From contig JAMPAU010000012.1 in the NCBI GenBank assembly GCA_023667045.1, positions 1 through 39,231 on the forward strand: a stretch of DNA of 39,231 nt, read 5' to 3'. The translations under genes were made by a program, and so were the position numbers. Of this stretch, positions 111-8,545 are shown piece by piece. The notes under the pieces were generated by a model. It searched no databases. It saw only the letters and a program-made list of their open reading frames with translations, and was not told where the DNA came from. The DNA is from Ruminococcus flavefaciens. Lineage in GTDB: Bacteria > Bacillota > Clostridia > Oscillospirales > Ruminococcaceae. Position 1 is the first letter of the stretch. Every line of letters starts with the position of its first letter.

Positions 111-146
111 AAAGGACAGCCCTTTGTGTAGCTGTCCTTTTTATTT
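111..146. terminator. bidirectional intrinsic terminator
   Basis: A perfect 10-bp stem (AAAGGACAGC / GCTGTCCTTT, loop 121-130) has T-rich tracts on both sides. It lies between the tRNA-Ser on the plus strand and the last gene of the minus-strand flavodoxin operon, so it probably ends both transcripts. Confidence 0.8.
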
Positions 147-469
147 TAGTCTTCTTGATATACTTCTTTGGCAATACGTAATGCCGCCCACGCTTTAGAC
201 CAACCTGCATAGAATGCCGTATGCGTGATTATTTCAGCCATTTCCTCAGCGGTAACGCCGTTGTTTTTGGCATTTATAATATGATACTTGAAAGAGCTGT
301 CCACAAGTCCCTGTGCCATAAGAGCGGTGACCGTTACAACGCTTCTGTCACGGAGTGAAAGCTTATCCTCTCTCGACCATACTTCACCAAAAAGTATATC
401 GTCGTTGAGTTCGGCGAACTTCGGGGCGAAATCTCCTAACTGCTCTCTGCCAGCCGTCTGTTTTACCAT
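146..469 (-). CDS. carboxymuconolactone decarboxylase-like (AhpD fold) protein
   Basis: A 107-residue helical protein of the carboxymuconolactone decarboxylase family. It has the family's central pattern: RDRSVVTVTALMAQG, then a conserved histidine (FKYHI), then the stretch NNGVTAEEMAEIITHTAFYAG. There is no CxxC pair, so it belongs with the non-thiol members and not with AhpD-type peroxidase partners. I start it at the ATG at 469, which follows a strong AAGGAGG site. The longer open frame to 508 would overlap the upstream gene. It is the last gene of a six-gene operon and sits 13 nt behind the acetyltransferase gene. In other bacteria such proteins occur beside cupins and flavodoxins in redox or aromatic-compound cassettes. 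The substrate here is unknown. Confidence 0.85.
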   Translation of the reverse strand: MVKQTAGREQLGDFAPKFAELNDDILFGEVWSREDKLSLRDRSVVTVTALMAQGLVDSSFKYHIINAKNNGVTAEEMAEIITHTAFYAGWSKAWAALRIAKEVYQED

Positions 470-482
470 ATTTAAAACCTCC

Positions 483-1055
483 TTATTTTTCGTAAATACT
501 GCGTACAACCTTTGCCGGACTGCCTACCGCTACCATATCTGCCGGAATGTCCTTTGTGACAACTGAACCTGCTCCGATAATGGCATTGTCTCCGATTTTC
601 ACGCCGGAGAGTATAACAGTACCCGAACCAATCCACACGCCTTTGCCGATACGGACAGGACGGGCTATCAAGTCGCCACGTTTTTCCGGCAACATACCAT
701 GATTGAGCGTTGCAATAACGACGTTGTGACCGATAAGGCACTTGTCGCCGATATAGATTCCGCCTTGGTCTTGAAAAGAACACCCCGAATTTATAAATAC
801 GCCTTTGCCTATGTGGGTATTTTTACCGCAGTCTGTGTGAAACGGCGGAAACATTCTGAAATCTTCATCAAGTTCTTGTCCGGTAAGTCTCGACATAAGG
901 AGACGGATTTCTTCCGGCGTATGATACGAGCTATTTATTTCGGACGTTATACGCAAAGCCTCTTGACTGAGTTCGTGCATTTTCATGTGAACCGGATTTC
1001 CGCAAGTGATTTGTTCACCGCTGTTCATTATCTGAATAAACTCATTATTTGTCAT
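483..1055 (-). CDS. maltose/galactoside-type sugar O-acetyltransferase
   Basis: A 190-residue protein of the Maa/LacA acetyltransferase family. It would transfer acetyl from acetyl-CoA to a sugar hydroxyl in the cytoplasm. An N-terminal helical Mac-type segment (about 1-55) is followed by hexapeptide repeats of a left-handed beta helix (about 75-185, such as IGDKCLIG and IGDNAIIGAG). The likely catalytic histidine is in TLNHG (H119). The length matches the family. The start overlaps the stop of the cupin gene by 4 nt (ATGA), so translation is probably coupled. The acceptor sugar cannot be read from sequence, and the neighbours suggest a stress or detoxification role more than lactose metabolism. 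Confidence 0.88.
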   Translation of the reverse strand: MTNNEFIQIMNSGEQITCGNPVHMKMHELSQEALRITSEINSSYHTPEEIRLLMSRLTGQELDEDFRMFPPFHTDCGKNTHIGKGVFINSGCSFQDQGGIYIGDKCLIGHNVVIATLNHGMLPEKRGDLIARPVRIGKGVWIGSGTVILSGVKIGDNAIIGAGSVVTKDIPADMVAVGSPAKVVRSIYEK

Positions 1056-1486
1056 AATTTTTCGTACTCCTCATCTGAGACAGGTTCGCACCATTCGTTT
1101 GAGGTTTCCTCGCCGAGTACTTCCACTGCTATGTGCGAAAACCACGAATCACTTTTAGCCCCGTGCCAGTGTTTTACCTCTGCCGGAATGGTTATCACCA
1201 TACCTGCTGTAAGGCTTACAGGTTCTTTGCCCCATGCCTGATACCAACCCTCTCCGGCAGTGCATATAAGCAACTGTCCTCCGCCGGACTTTGCGTGGTG
1301 GATATGCCAGTTGTTGCGACATTTTGGTTCAAAGGTAACGTTTGCGAGGAATACTGGACACTTTCCGGCTGCTGTTAGGGGTTTAAGGTATGAATTTCCC
1401 TTAAAGTACTGTGCAAAAGCGTCATTCGGCGAACCTATGCCGAAACTGTCAGCTTTTTCAAATTCATTTCTGTCTGTAATTTTCAT
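1052..1486 (-). CDS. single-domain cupin protein
   Basis: A 144-residue single cupin barrel. The first metal motif is visible around H61, H63 and H64 followed by a glycine-rich turn. The second lies near KHWHG (H106, H108) with another histidine at 118. These would hold one divalent metal. An AGGAGG-type site lies just upstream of the ATG. The gene follows the dockerin-flavodoxin gene by 15 nt and overlaps the acetyltransferase gene by 4 nt. Cupins of this size often travel with carboxymuconolactone decarboxylase-like genes, as here. Whether it is an enzyme or a binding protein is not clear from the sequence. Confidence 0.85.
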   Translation of the reverse strand: MKITDRNEFEKADSFGIGSPNDAFAQYFKGNSYLKPLTAAGKCPVFLANVTFEPKCRNNWHIHHAKSGGGQLLICTAGEGWYQAWGKEPVSLTAGMVITIPAEVKHWHGAKSDSWFSHIAVEVLGEETSNEWCEPVSDEEYEKL

Positions 1487-1501: not shown

Positions 1502-2431
1502 TTATTTTGCGAGCGACAAAGTAACTTCAACACTTCCTGTGCCTAAAATCTTTTTAAGTTCTTCCTGTGTTACGTTGTTAATGTGTCCGAGACGTGTCAA
1601 TGACCATGAATTTTTATCATAGTATATCACAAACTTGTTTCCTTGATAGAGAATCAAGTCGCCATAATCGGTGTTGATTTGTTCGTTGTTTGTGGGCAGA
1701 GCTTCCGGAAGAGTGCCAGTTTTTTCAAAGTTAGCGTAATCATCAAGACTTAAAGTAAGTGATTTGTTGCCGATGAGTTTTGCGAGAGCCTCAGCGGAAG
1801 AATTATCGGCAAGAGTGGCAGAAAGCGTATGTCCGTTTACTTCGATATTCATTATAGTTTCTTTTTTCTTGTCGGGGAGATTAAGCGTGTCAATCCAGTC
1901 TGAAACGTCTTTTTCGGTTGCATTTGATGCGAAACGTTTTCCGGCGAGCTGATTTCCGGCTGAAATTAATTCACTGATATTCTTTTCGCTTGCGGAAATT
2001 CCAGTACTGCCGGACGTACAGAAAGGTATAACGGTTTTATCCGAGAAGTCGTAACTCTCAAGAAAAGTATCTATAATACGAGGTTCTTCGCCCCACCAAA
2101 TAGGATAGCCCAAGAAAACCACATCATATGATTTTATGCTGTCAATGGGGTCGGCGATTTTTTCGGTGTTTCCGGTGCGTGAAAAATACGCAACAAGAAT
2201 ATCGCTTTTTTCTTCATTATTGTTAAGGAAATGTTTACGCATAAGACAGAGGTCGAAAACGTCTATAACGCCGTCGCCGGTGAGGTCGTAGAGACTTCTT
2301 AAAATTCCTGGCGAGCCAGTGAGAAGAAAGTTATTCAGATTGTGCATATCCTGAGCGGTATAGTTTACGGCGTTTGCGGTTGCCGGAACAGCAAGAAAAG
2401 CAGTTATTAAAGCGGTAAGAAATTTTTTCAC
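1502..2431 (-). CDS. exported dockerin-flavodoxin-cyclophilin-like fusion
   Basis: A 309-residue modular protein. Residues 1-21 are a signal peptide (MKKFLTALITAFLAVPATA). Residues 23-70 are a dockerin whose second calcium loop is canonical (DLTGDGVIDVFDL) and whose first half is degenerate. Residues 77-186 are flavodoxin-like, with the FMN phosphate loop SRTGNTEK and the GYPIWWGEEP strand. Residues 194-309 match the cyclophilin-like domain found behind flavodoxins in gut Firmicutes. Compared with the next gene upstream, about 45 residues are missing between TEKIA and DPIDSI, so the flavodoxin core is shortened in frame. The start is GTG, set by an AGGAGG site about 10 nt upstream. The export signal and dockerin suggest attachment to a cell-surface scaffold. 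Cofactor binding is doubtful because of the deletion. Confidence 0.85.
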   Translation of the reverse strand: MKKFLTALITAFLAVPATANAVNYTAQDMHNLNNFLLTGSPGILRSLYDLTGDGVIDVFDLCLMRKHFLNNNEEKSDILVAYFSRTGNTEKIADPIDSIKSYDVVFLGYPIWWGEEPRIIDTFLESYDFSDKTVIPFCTSGSTGISASEKNISELISAGNQLAGKRFASNATEKDVSDWIDTLNLPDKKKETIMNIEVNGHTLSATLADNSSAEALAKLIGNKSLTLSLDDYANFEKTGTLPEALPTNNEQINTDYGDLILYQGNKFVIYYDKNSWSLTRLGHINNVTQEELKKILGTGSVEVTLSLAK

Positions 2432-2446
2432 AGGAAAGGACCTCCT

Positions 2447-2923
2447 TTAAAGAGTTTCAAGCCATTCCTTTAACTCTGCAACAGTCGGGTTGCCGTTTAA
2501 TATTTTACCCTCTTTTATCACGGTGCTGTCGGAAACACTGCATTCCAGTTCTTTTACTGTATTGCCGAAACCGCTAACGCCGGAAGTAGCAAAGAGTATT
2601 ATTGTTTTTCCGGAAAAGTCATGACTTTCAAGGAAAGTATTTATAACAGTCGGTGCTACATACCACCATACCGGAAAACCAACAAAAACAGTATCGTATG
2701 CCGAAATATCAACCGGATTTTCAGAGAGTGCCGGACGGTAGCTTTTGTCCGCCATCTCAACACTTGAACGTGATTTTTTGTCCATCCAGTTGAGGTCGGC
2801 AGTGGAGTAGGGAACAGCCGGTTTTATTTCGTAAATATCAGCTCCGGAAGCCTCAGCAAGATTTTTGGCAGTTTTGGCAGTAACTCCACTTGCACTGAAA
2901 TATGCAACTAATTTTTTACTCAT
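2447..2923 (-). CDS. flavodoxin
   Basis: A 158-residue cytoplasmic flavodoxin of the short Firmicutes type. The N-terminal phosphate-binding loop (FSASGVTAKTAK, about residues 9-20), the central VGFPVWW strand and the LFATSG loop that packs on the flavin are all present, so it should bind FMN and carry electrons. The length is normal for the family, which makes it a useful template for the shortened copy in the next gene. The ATG follows a clear AGGAGG. It is the second gene of the TetR-led operon, 34 nt after the regulator gene, with 15 nt to the GTG of the dockerin fusion. Its redox partner is unknown. Confidence 0.9.
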   Translation of the reverse strand: MSKKLVAYFSASGVTAKTAKNLAEASGADIYEIKPAVPYSTADLNWMDKKSRSSVEMADKSYRPALSENPVDISAYDTVFVGFPVWWYVAPTVINTFLESHDFSGKTIILFATSGVSGFGNTVKELECSVSDSTVIKEGKILNGNPTVAELKEWLETL

Positions 2924-2957: not shown

Positions 2958-3587
2958 TTAATATTCGCCGGAAAGTAAGTTTTTCACACAGTTATATACT
3001 ATATCGTGTATACTGTATTGTACGAAATCCAGTCCCACTTCACGCATAGCCCTTGACTGCTTTTCCGTTGCGTTGGTATATGGATAAACTCCGAACATAA
3101 ACGGAAAAAACACAAAAATAAAGTCTGACTTCTGCTTTTCACTCATATGCGGACAGAATTTGTCAAGGCACGCCCCTACAGCCAAAAGGGCTTTTTTGTA
3201 TGAAGATTTAAAATCCTTGAGGTTTTCAAATCTGCTGTTAGCCTCAATGTCGTAAAGATTCATGGCAAGGAGCTTAAGGAGCTGTTTACGCTTTTCGAGG
3301 GAGCAGGCAAGGTTATGTGCGAGACTTTCAGCGGAAAGCGTATCATTGCTGTCAATTATGCTTTGCAGGTCGATTATCCATAAGTCATATTCTCTCTGCA
3401 TGAATGCAAGAAAAATTTCCTCTTTGGTCTGAAAGTAATTATATATAGAAGTCCTCGTGAATGATGTAATACTTCCTATTTCCTTTATCGTGATTTCCCT
3501 GAAGCTCATAGTCTGGTAGAGTTTTTCGCAGGCGTTTATAATTTCCTCACGGCGTGAGGCGGTAAGTTCCGGTGAACCTTTTGGCAT
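2958..3587 (-). CDS. TetR/AcrR-family transcriptional regulator, probably autoregulatory
   Basis: A 209-residue one-component repressor. The N-terminal helix-turn-helix is plain (about 15-60: ITIKEIGSITSFTRTSIYNYF), and the rest is the helical ligand and dimer domain, which resembles TetR_C members of Clostridia. I start it at the ATG at 3587, behind AAAGGAG. The open frame extends 11 codons further but would run into the promoter. It is the first gene of the six-gene operon. Two TGACA-centred palindromes overlap its own promoter, so negative autoregulation of the whole operon is the natural reading. The inducer cannot be guessed from sequence; the enzymes downstream suggest a redox or electrophile signal. 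Confidence 0.9.
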   Translation of the reverse strand: MPKGSPELTASRREEIINACEKLYQTMSFREITIKEIGSITSFTRTSIYNYFQTKEEIFLAFMQREYDLWIIDLQSIIDSNDTLSAESLAHNLACSLEKRKQLLKLLAMNLYDIEANSRFENLKDFKSSYKKALLAVGACLDKFCPHMSEKQKSDFIFVFFPFMFGVYPYTNATEKQSRAMREVGLDFVQYSIHDIVYNCVKNLLSGEY

Positions 3588-3606
3588 AGCAATTCTCCTT
3601 TTATAC

Positions 3607-3619
3607 TGACACCGTGTCA
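3607..3619. promoter_or_regulatory. TetR operator 1
   Basis: A perfect 13-bp palindrome, TGACACCGTGTCA, just downstream of the minus-strand -10 box at 3628-3633 and between the promoter and the tetR ribosome site. Binding here would block promoter clearance. It closely resembles operator 2, and the centres are 36 bp apart. Confidence 0.7.
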
Positions 3620-3627
3620 TTAAGGCT

Positions 3628-3728: not shown

Positions 3729-3764
3729 AAAAAACTCCCGAAAACAATAGTTTTCAGGAGTTTT
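3729..3764 (-). terminator. terminator of tRNA-Arg
   Basis: A hairpin with arms AAACTCCCGAAAAC and GTTTTCAGGAGTTT (one mismatched pair) and an A-tract on the plus side that becomes a U-tract in the minus-strand RNA. It begins at the CCA end of tRNA-Arg. Confidence 0.8.
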
Positions 3765-3840
3765 GGCGTGCCTGGAGGGATTCGAACCCCCGACCTACTG
3801 GTTCGTAGCCAGTCACTCTATCCAGCTGAGCTACAAGCAC
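3764..3840 (-). tRNA. tRNA-Arg (ACG)
   Basis: A complete 77-nt cloverleaf on the minus strand. Acceptor arms GTGCTTG and CAGGCAC pair with one wobble, the anticodon loop is CTACGAA (anticodon ACG), the T arm contains GGTTCGAATCC, and CCA is encoded. The A at the wobble position would be edited to inosine. Confidence 0.95.
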
Positions 3841-4031: not shown

Positions 4032-4107
4032 GAGACATTAGCTCAGTCGGTAGAGCATACGCCTTTTAAGCGTAGGGTCGAGGGTTCAAATCCCTCATGT
4101 CTCACCA
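4032..4107 (+). tRNA. tRNA-Lys (TTT), copy 1
   Basis: A complete 76-nt cloverleaf. Acceptor GAGACAT/ATGTCTC, anticodon loop CTTTTAA (anticodon TTT), T loop TTCAAAT, encoded CCA at the end. It is nearly identical to the next tRNA gene. Confidence 0.95.
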
Positions 4108-4176: not shown

Positions 4177-4252
4177 GAGACATTAGCTCAGCCGGTAGAG
4201 CATACGCCTTTTAAGCGTAGGGTCGAGGGTTCAAGTCCCTCATGTCTCACCA
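4177..4252 (+). tRNA. tRNA-Lys (TTT), copy 2
   Basis: A complete 76-nt cloverleaf with the same acceptor and anticodon arms as copy 1. It differs at one D-loop base (GCCGG for GTCGG) and one T-loop base (TTCAAGT for TTCAAAT). CCA is encoded. This is a tandem duplication of a tRNA-Lys gene. Confidence 0.95.
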
Positions 4253-4296: not shown

Positions 4297-4324
4297 GTCT
4301 GTCTGAAAAAAAGAGGTACATAAA

Positions 4325-6331: not shown

Positions 6332-8545
6332 TTATTCAAGATTCATGAGTGTACCCATGAATACAGGGAGATAAGTTTCTGTATCTACAATGCAGTAAAC
6401 AAAAGGTCTGTCAAGGATTATTTCCTTTTCAGCAGGCATTGCGGTACAATCATTTAACAGTACAGCGGTAACTGCTGATGCCTTTGTGCCTTCTTCAAAA
6501 ACGTCAATGTGGGTCTTGTGGATAACCTCGCTTATAAATTTAGGCTGTAATGCGAGCTTTGAGAAATCAGCATTATAATAATCGAATGCACTCGGCATAC
6601 CCATGTCAGAAAGTATCTTTACAAGTTCGCCGTCTGCCGTGCTGTAGTCATAGCTGAATTTCGGAATACCCGCACTGATATAGTCTGACTGTGGATTTGC
6701 AAGGACATTGTGGAGCGATTCGGGAGTAAGACCCTTTACATAGTCTACAACGGTAATATCTTCGTCCGGCAGAAGTACAGCAAAGGCATAACGATTGCCC
6801 TTATAGTATTTATAGAAACCCTCTGCATTGTCGTCCTTAAGGTAGTAGGATTCTGACGACATCATCATGTCGGCTTCTTGAATATCTCCGTTGTAGTTCT
6901 GGAAATTATATTTTATAACGTCGTCTTCCGTGTATGGTTTTTTCCATTTAGCGTCAAAGGTAACGGCGTTTATAAGCATCATAACGCATTCGTCCTGTAT
7001 TTCATCAATGACTGACGGTATCATGTGGTCGGTGTTGGTGTCTACCCACTTGTTTACTTCTTCAATAGTTTTTTCATCAAAAGGTGCTGTAAAGATTTCG
7101 GCATTGTAGTAATCAACAACGCTCTGTAAAAATTCGGGGTACGGACTTATACGTGCCTCGTTGTTGCGTGTCCATACGGAGTTAGCAGTAAGGAGCTTGC
7201 ACTTGTCGTCATTCGGCTGGCTAGTTCTTTGTGTGTAGAGGTATTTGTTGAGGTCGTCGAAATCAATTCCACCGCCTATGACGTTTTCAAATTCTTCCTT
7301 TGTAACGCCGTCAGCACCGTTTCCGGTCATAGCAAGTGCCTGTACTACTGAATATGGCGATACAAGGACGTTTTGGCTCTCTGAGACTGTATTCTGGAAA
7401 AGTTCAAGGGCAAAATCTGTCTGACCGTTTATGAAAGTATCATCAGCTTCCTTGCCCTGTACCTCTGCTGACTTTATATCAGCGGTAAGATTTACAATTT
7501 CTGTAGAGACAGGCAAACCAGCTTCAATTTTTTCAACAAGAGCTTTTTTCATGAAATACAAATCAAATACATCAACATATCCGTCGTTGTTTATGTCACC
7601 AGTGCCGTCAGCGATAGAACCTCTGCCCATGAGCCAGTTATTGAGCGTTACAACGTCGGCTACAGTGAAGATACCGTCGCCGTTAATGTCTTCGCCCATA
7701 TTTTTTTCGGTGATTGCTACAAAGTTAATACCGTGTTCTACAGCGAACGCCTCTACCTTGCTACCAGCGACGGACTTTATAGTAGTATTTTTGAAGTTCA
7801 CGGCAAAGTCGTGCAGTTCGCAGTCTGGATTATTTATAGTAACCATTTTAAGAGTTGACGGAAAAGCATTCATGCCAATAGTGGCGACGCTTTCCGGCAG
7901 AGTGATATAATCTATACTTGTACAGCCGTTGAAAGTATTCGCTTCAATTGAGGTCACGCCGTCGGGAATATTTATCTCTGTGAGACCTAAACAGTCATGA
8001 AAAGCCTGCTCTTTGATTCTTGTCACAGAATCGGGGATATTTACTTTCGTGAGACTGCTACAGCCATAAAATGCCCTTGTGCCGATACTGGTTACATTTT
8101 CAGGGATTCTGATTGATTTAAGGGATTTGCAGTTAATAAATGTCTCGTCATCAATTCTTGTCACATCTTCCGGAATATTGACTGTTTCAAGTGCCGTACA
8201 CTGATAGAAAGCCTGTTTGTCGATAGTCGTCACTGTACTGGGGAGGACTATTTCCGTGACATTGGTATTTCCGGCGAATGCGTGTTCACCGATATACTTA
8301 ACCGGCAGACCTGCTATTTCTTCCGGCACTTCAATTTTACCGCTTGCATTTGTTGCAACGGCAGTAATCTGAATATATCTTCCTAAATTTTTATACTGGT
8401 AAATATCATAGTATTCAGTTTTTACCGGCTGTTCAACAACAACACTGCTGTCAGCACTTGCGTTAAATATCGGTGGTATGTAACCGGACATCTGTGCTGT
8501 CATACAGAGACACATTACAGCGGTAAGGATTTTTTTAGTTTTCAT
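6332..8545 (-). CDS. secreted serpin with leucine-rich repeats and dockerin
   Basis: A 737-residue modular secreted protein. Signal peptide about 1-31. Residues about 68-255 are BspA-type leucine-rich repeats (units like VTSIGTRAFYGCSSLTKVNIP, trimmed here to their pattern: I..RAF..C..L..VNIP). Residues 285-340 are a dockerin with two calcium loops (DINGDGIFTVADV, DINNDGYVDVFDL). Residues about 365-737 are a full serpin. The reactive-loop hinge is EEGTKASAVTA (684-694), matching the inhibitory pattern with an unusual Lys at P13. Counting 17 residues from E684 puts P1 at Cys700 and P1' at Thr701, though P1 could be a neighbour. A strong AGGAGG precedes the ATG. It is probably a suicide inhibitor of serine or cysteine proteases, tethered to the cellulosome. 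Dockerin-serpins are known in Clostridium thermocellum. The LRR part may bind a surface partner. Confidence 0.92.
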   Translation of the reverse strand: MKTKKILTAVMCLCMTAQMSGYIPPIFNASADSSVVVEQPVKTEYYDIYQYKNLGRYIQITAVATNASGKIEVPEEIAGLPVKYIGEHAFAGNTNVTEIVLPSTVTTIDKQAFYQCTALETVNIPEDVTRIDDETFINCKSLKSIRIPENVTSIGTRAFYGCSSLTKVNIPDSVTRIKEQAFHDCLGLTEINIPDGVTSIEANTFNGCTSIDYITLPESVATIGMNAFPSTLKMVTINNPDCELHDFAVNFKNTTIKSVAGSKVEAFAVEHGINFVAITEKNMGEDINGDGIFTVADVVTLNNWLMGRGSIADGTGDINNDGYVDVFDLYFMKKALVEKIEAGLPVSTEIVNLTADIKSAEVQGKEADDTFINGQTDFALELFQNTVSESQNVLVSPYSVVQALAMTGNGADGVTKEEFENVIGGGIDFDDLNKYLYTQRTSQPNDDKCKLLTANSVWTRNNEARISPYPEFLQSVVDYYNAEIFTAPFDEKTIEEVNKWVDTNTDHMIPSVIDEIQDECVMMLINAVTFDAKWKKPYTEDDVIKYNFQNYNGDIQEADMMMSSESYYLKDDNAEGFYKYYKGNRYAFAVLLPDEDITVVDYVKGLTPESLHNVLANPQSDYISAGIPKFSYDYSTADGELVKILSDMGMPSAFDYYNADFSKLALQPKFISEVIHKTHIDVFEEGTKASAVTAVLLNDCTAMPAEKEIILDRPFVYCIVDTETYLPVFMGTLMNLE

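Follow-up and report, generated by a model that had tools for sequence, protein, structure and literature searches.

The 39,231-bp window analysed here, which comprises positions 1 to 39,231 of contig JAMPAU010000012.1 of a Ruminococcus flavefaciens assembly (GCA_023667045.1), contains at positions 1502-2431 a gene for a half-dockerin flavodoxin/cyclophilin-like protein whose flavodoxin domain lacks 48 residues (144 bp, in frame), comprising most of helix 1, strand 2 and the long loop ahead of strand 3, or approximately one third of the flavin-binding domain. We consider it likely that a recent deletion mediated by short repeats crippled flavin binding in this protein and left its cyclophilin-like domain and its tag in place. 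The gene and its product display the following features:

1502..2431, minus strand: half-dockerin / shortened Flavodoxin_4 / cyclophilin-like protein, probably exported, 309 amino acids, GTG start (open reading frame list and Pfam).
2441..2448, minus strand: ribosome-binding-site-like sequence AAAGGAGG, which overlaps the stop codon of the flavodoxin gene that lies upstream (sequence).
2369..2431, minus strand: predicted signal peptide, residues 1-21, without a lipobox cysteine (by eye from the sequence).
2213..2368, minus strand: half dockerin, residues 22-73, composed of a loopless first helix and one calcium-loop repeat (Pfam, alignment and loop pattern).
2252..2287, minus strand: single calcium-binding loop, residues 49-60 (sequence and loop pattern).
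1883..2206, minus strand: Flavodoxin_4 remnant, approximately residues 76-183 (Pfam, alignment and structure model).
2151..2158, minus strand: deletion junction at ATCGCCGA, codons I92, A93 and part of D94, with 144 bp gone (comparison with relatives).
1517..1846, minus strand: Cyclophil_like2 domain, residues 196-305, complete (Pfam and structure model).

The Flavodoxin_4 profile (PF12682) matches the protein with 94.8 bits (gathering cut-off 24; E value 4.9e-27), and the match is incomplete, residues 92-182 covering only profile positions 64-154 of 155; strand 1, the phosphate loop and the start of helix 1 are followed by strand 3 onwards. The neighbouring flavodoxin (2447-2923) covers positions 1-154 of 155 and is complete, so that the segment is present in the adjacent gene, as the original prediction had stated. 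Cyclophil_like2 (PF18050) is matched over its full length (positions 1-114 of 115, 2.2e-25), and Dockerin_1 scores 24.4 bits against a gathering cut-off of 22.9, with a best stretch of one repeat (positions 2-28 of 57). Because the flavodoxin and cyclophilin-like scores are far over the cut-offs (the dockerin score barely) and the frame is open, this domain reading is not a matter of chance; the Pfam matches and the signal peptide recognized by eye agree with the earlier description of a dockerin-bearing flavodoxin/cyclophilin-like protein that is probably exported.

Alignment and predicted structures, compared with the model of an intact relative, confirm that strand 2 and most of helix 1 are absent; the near-invariant pattern CRA..EQ.D...RP.I falls inside the missing segment, and 16 near-invariant residues are gone. 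The distance from the phosphate loop to the GYPIWWG motif is 26 residues, as compared to 73-76 in 83 and 94 in one of 84 other motif pairs. Among the 58 pairs in dockerin-bearing frames the spacing is 74 in 49, 73 in seven, 76 in one and 26 in the 1502-2431 protein, and the gap between dockerin and flavodoxin is 20 in this protein and 68-83 in 68 other dockerin-flavodoxin stretches. Short spacing was thus found in one of 69 dockerin-flavodoxin stretches (which include some cut copies of single genes) and in one of 85 motif pairs, both being the gene at 1502-2431. The original prediction had placed an in-frame loss of about 45 residues between the phosphate loop and the core strand that follows it; the loss is confirmed in the assembled sequence and amounts to 48 residues.

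The genome collections searched for this short form contained one genome per species, so that the comparisons are between species. In the genus, 96 of 100 sampled genomes (own genome included) had some match at an E value of 0.001, many of them to a flavodoxin, a cyclophilin-like part or a dockerin alone, and the closest relative among the matches listed was approximately 68% identical. Within the taxonomic family a match at 1e-60 was obtained in 15 of 396 genomes (own included) from 8 of 126 genera, and in the other 14 genomes the listed matches start at query residue 91-95. A wider scan, again with one genome per species, yielded 304 related stretches, and the analysis drew on the best 80 of these. 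Among the matches listed, no conserved short form was found in the genus, the family or the best 80 of 304 cross-species stretches, the genus scan leaving aside some weaker matches that start just before residue 91; viral contigs gave no match to the protein. The shortened form is limited to this genome among those examined. The possibility raised in the original prediction that the shortened flavodoxin was repurposed is therefore not supported by the refuting test named there, since the examined homologues are full-length.

A scan for the WWG pattern gave 54 places, 42 with full spacing, one with short spacing (the gene at 1502-2431) and 11 without a phosphate-loop match. By eye, L033, L042, L061, L064, L066 and L067 among these 11 loci carry the full segment, as does L041, with its phosphate loop out of frame; L002 is a cut copy of the intact exported paralogue described below, L072 starts at a contig end, L028 has a frameshift here and L069 is without the upstream part. 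Several candidates for a short form were rejected. Matches in genomes G098 (residues 42-185), G005 (42-189) and G025 (73-185) span the junction, yet these sequences are full-length flavodoxins aligned without gaps, while G103 matches at nt 229-296 and then at nt 303-455 and is full length, since the second block sits approximately 150 bases farther on. The genus nucleotide comparison leaves aside a 28-base match in G050 (nt 268-295, E 8e-4).

At the junction the protein reads TEK-IA-DP; the typical reading in relatives is TEKIAE at the first site and, 144 bp away, RPEIAD or RPEIAE at the second. Many relatives possess a short direct repeat exactly at both deletion ends. Identical runs of at least 7 nt at a 144-bp offset are present in 13 of 56 full-length dockerin-flavodoxin copies, and in 16 of 81 flavodoxin copies as compared to 22 of 8009 comparisons at other offsets, counts that are not independent trials, since the copies are related and the repeat is inherited by descent. 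In most copies the repeat runs are shorter than 7 nt, and the repeat copy lost from the gene itself cannot be seen. From this geometry we infer that the 144 bp would have been lost when a pair of short direct repeats, both encoding (K/E)-I-A-(E/D), slipped or recombined. Since the two repeats share a reading frame, such an event leaves the frame open by itself, and an open frame cannot be taken as evidence of selection here. An assembly or sequencing artefact, in which case the organism would carry a full-length gene, could account for the other copies examined all being full length in the missing stretch, but is very unlikely: the junction repeat is only approximately 8 bp, far under the usual assembler word sizes, and the frame, the neighbours and both flanks are clean. 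Around position 4300 of locus L028, the exported flavodoxin of a relative is frameshifted near the same RPE motif, which, unless it represents a sequence error, indicates that the exported flavodoxin gene may be damaged elsewhere too.

Besides the relatedness of the counted copies and the unseen repeat copy, a number of observations on the remnant weigh against a crippled flavodoxin. The phosphate loop, the WWG loop and the TSGSTGI loop are all retained in the alignment; in classical flavodoxins these three loops touch the flavin. Of the conserved positions still present in the flavodoxin, 50 of 51 are unchanged, as are 21 of 23 in the cyclophilin-like domain and 10 of 13 in the dockerin. In a tree of 37 proteins, obtained from 48 after removal of near-identical ones, the flavodoxin branch is of ordinary length (rank 21 of 37), the cyclophilin branch is on the long side (28 of 37) and the dockerin branch is long (35 of 37), with a low flavodoxin/cyclophilin branch ratio (rank 7 of 37), so that the remaining flavodoxin appears to display no sign of neutral decay yet. 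The AlphaFold model, which was built from 25 sequences and is a weak judge of a deletion, has a strand, helix, helix, strand order across the junction, from strand 1 to strand 3; with helices placed there, the domain could conceivably form a reduced sheet, and Foldseek still finds a flavodoxin in the model (4ici, E 2.3e-5).

These retained loops and positions, the unaccelerated rate, the modelled order across the junction and the Foldseek matches could all be explained by a functional minimal flavodoxin, in which one beta-alpha unit was cleanly taken out, a helix links strand 1 to strand 3, and flavin mononucleotide (FMN) or another ligand is bound in a smaller sheet. We nevertheless regard it as unlikely, as 16 near-invariant residues are lost, the best match of the model is poor, the per-residue model confidence (pLDDT) is low at the junction and at the WWG loop, and the form was not found in any other species examined. 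It is likewise improbable that the protein represents a naturally shortened flavodoxin which lost one beta-alpha unit in a single step and, stable and flavin-holding or ligand-switched outside the cell, was selected beside its cyclophilin-like domain. If instead the flavodoxin were a redox-dead spacer in a binding module functioning only via the cyclophilin-like domain and the half dockerin, its residues should drift faster than the cyclophilin ones, which they do not, and no second species examined carries such a module; we give this explanation little credence.

In support of a crippling deletion, the predicted fold of the remnant is poor, the best flavodoxin match of its model by Foldseek being weak, while the intact relative L011 has an excellent predicted fold (TMt 0.89-0.92 to solved Flavodoxin_4 structures). 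A VIA-align search with the model of the shortened protein returned 50 rows, all cyclophilin-like folds, which has little bearing on the flavodoxin part. Normal folding and normal FMN binding have thus probably been lost in the remnant; its loops are kept while conserved loop residues are gone, from which loss of FMN binding would be expected. The original prediction had also considered that the gene may be decaying: near-invariant residues are indeed lost, but with 50 of 51 positions kept and a flavodoxin branch that is not long, decay, if any, has barely begun. Two readings fit, a recent deletion or a remnant under continuing constraint; we favour a recent event, given the strong conservation of the lost residues and the intact exported paralogue that the genome keeps. 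The gene is one member of the exported half-dockerin flavodoxin-cyclophilin family of Ruminococcus-like bacteria. Its product would still be secreted with its tag and an undamaged cyclophilin-like domain, the flavodoxin being the damaged part, whose redox work may have been taken over by the intact exported paralogue on contig C43, or lost.

This paralogue (810 amino acids; G000:C43, L009 3225-5657) has a dockerin-like start, a full Flavodoxin_4 domain, an FGE-sulfatase domain, a second flavodoxin and a cyclophilin-like domain; an FGE-sulfatase domain lies between two flavodoxins in both L009 and L049. A domain search of 165 loci gave 129 distinct flavodoxin-bearing stretches, 48 of which, the gene at 1502-2431 included, have the order dockerin-flavodoxin-cyclophilin (both counts include some cut copies of one gene). 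This architecture is common in the genus and present elsewhere in the family, and the fusion, with 47 other distinct counterparts in the searched loci, is no oddity. No dockerin-flavodoxin or exported flavodoxin-cyclophilin fusion was found described in the titles and abstract openings of the papers listed by searches of an open-access library. Two half-dockerin flavodoxin-cyclophilin proteins with a signal-like start (L018 4001-5956 and L104 1036-2988) are fused to an aldo/keto reductase, an enzyme whose reduced nicotinamide adenine dinucleotide phosphate (NADPH) is normally supplied in the cytoplasm, and in L066 (3806-5029) the order is cyclophilin, flavodoxin, dockerin, the dockerin being unreported by Pfam. 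At L165 (G030:C1:34500-50000), several flavodoxin and cyclophilin-like genes are clustered within 15 kb, one of them encoding a dockerin-cyclophilin-flavodoxin-cyclophilin protein.

The dockerin tag, although over the cut-off, is only a half dockerin: instead of two calcium-loop repeats the protein has one loop, and among 65 distinct stretches (this one included) the second-loop pattern is present in 62 and the first-loop pattern in one, probably by chance. A whole-genome dockerin scan at an E value of 0.001 gave 86 matches, without the dockerin of the 1502-2431 protein among them, and 12 cohesin matches were found, 10 over the cut-off; the cohesins of the genome are on contigs C90, C61, C101 and C24. 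This cellulosome-like parts list makes display on a scaffold plausible, with binding to a cohesin as a prediction from sequence. Export of the protein is probable from its signal peptide. A lipobox-like cysteine was flagged in 39 of 69 signal regions of relatives by a rough pattern, for which some flags inside the hydrophobic core are doubtful and a few likely cases were missed; many relatives thus combine a lipobox-like signal with a half dockerin, that is, a predicted membrane anchor with a scaffold tag. The group 2 half dockerins of R. flavefaciens FD-1 are reported to bind the ScaE and ScaH cohesins (PMC5301203), to be C-terminal and to retain the first repeat (PMC2930009). The present module shares with group 2 a single recognisable calcium repeat, but it is N-terminal and its loop follows a loopless first helix, so that group 2 offers an analogy rather than a membership.

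With the solved Bacteroides Flavodoxin_4 structures (PF12682; 3klb, 4ici and 4j8p) the protein shares the family, and L011 the fold; it differs from them in lacking approximately 48 profile positions ahead of position 64 and in being fused to a half dockerin and a cyclophilin-like domain. Exported Flavodoxin_4 proteins flavinylated by ApbE are mainly from Firmicutes, and in these an insertion that bears the flavinylation motif separates strand 1 from helix 1 (PMC11334425); a Flavodoxin_4 domain and probable export are what the present family has in common with them. The insertion is absent from 25 aligned proteins, including the shortened one, and a flavinylation-like pattern of our own design was found in none of 70 proteins; one ApbE gene is located elsewhere in the genome. 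Without the insertion, the dockerin-flavodoxin family would hold FMN non-covalently or not at all, and an exported Flavodoxin_4 family without the insertion known from flavinylated ones represents a side finding. The Cyclophil_like2 domain, complete by Pfam and by fold, is related to the atypical cyclophilin TM1367 (1zx8) and the Pictet-Spenglerase KslB (9nsc), to which it is only 14-18% identical; isomerase or ligase activity is thus not inferable.

The gene belongs to a tight minus-strand run, probably an operon, in the order TetR regulator, cytosolic flavodoxin, the 1502-2431 gene (which begins 15 bp downstream of the flavodoxin gene), cupin, hexapeptide acyltransferase and carboxymuconolactone decarboxylase (CMD):

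2958..3620, minus strand: TetR-family regulator (TetR_N, TetR_C_34), upstream gene of the likely operon (Pfam).
2447..2923, minus strand: full-length Flavodoxin_4 protein without signal peptide, directly upstream (open reading frame list and Pfam).
1052..1486, minus strand: cupin protein, downstream (Pfam).
483..1055, minus strand: hexapeptide-repeat acyltransferase-like protein, downstream (Pfam).
146..508, minus strand: CMD-family protein, downstream (Pfam).

Elsewhere in the window, positions 6332-8545 encode a 737-residue protein with a signal-like start, BspA leucine-rich repeats, a dockerin and a serpin domain (Pfam); PMC2930009 lists Doc-serpin proteins in R. flavefaciens FD-1. Two tandem tRNA-Lys (ttt) genes are located at 4032-4107 and 4177-4252, with a tRNA-Arg (acg) gene close by at 3764-3840.

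At 68 flavodoxin-cyclophilin loci (this one included, some overlapping), cupins like that of the present locus were found at no fewer than 18, CMD proteins at no fewer than 17, often in one frame with a cupin, hexapeptide proteins at no fewer than 13 and TetR regulators at no fewer than 9, these counts being lower bounds as many loci are short; the corresponding count for the cytosolic flavodoxin carries no information, since the fusion gene matches the same query. Twenty hand-picked neighbour proteins include four aldo/keto reductases, three LysR regulators, three alpha/beta-hydrolase-like proteins, two energy-coupling factor (ECF)-transporter-like proteins and one FMN reductase. Such co-encoded neighbours suggest that an extracytoplasmic flavin protein takes part in a small pathway of redox chemistry or detoxification, and we tentatively propose that the intact family may perform extracytoplasmic FMN-based reduction together with the aldo/keto reductase, CMD-cupin proteins and cytosolic flavodoxin that are often encoded nearby. 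The deletion at 1502-2431 offers a clean natural case of how one unit of a fold can be lost in frame through a short repeat. Many flavodoxin-cyclophilin proteins with a single-repeat dockerin appear to be exported by Ruminococcus-like bacteria, and should these proteins hold flavin beyond the membrane, the surface of cellulosome-bearing bacteria may be a site of redox chemistry.
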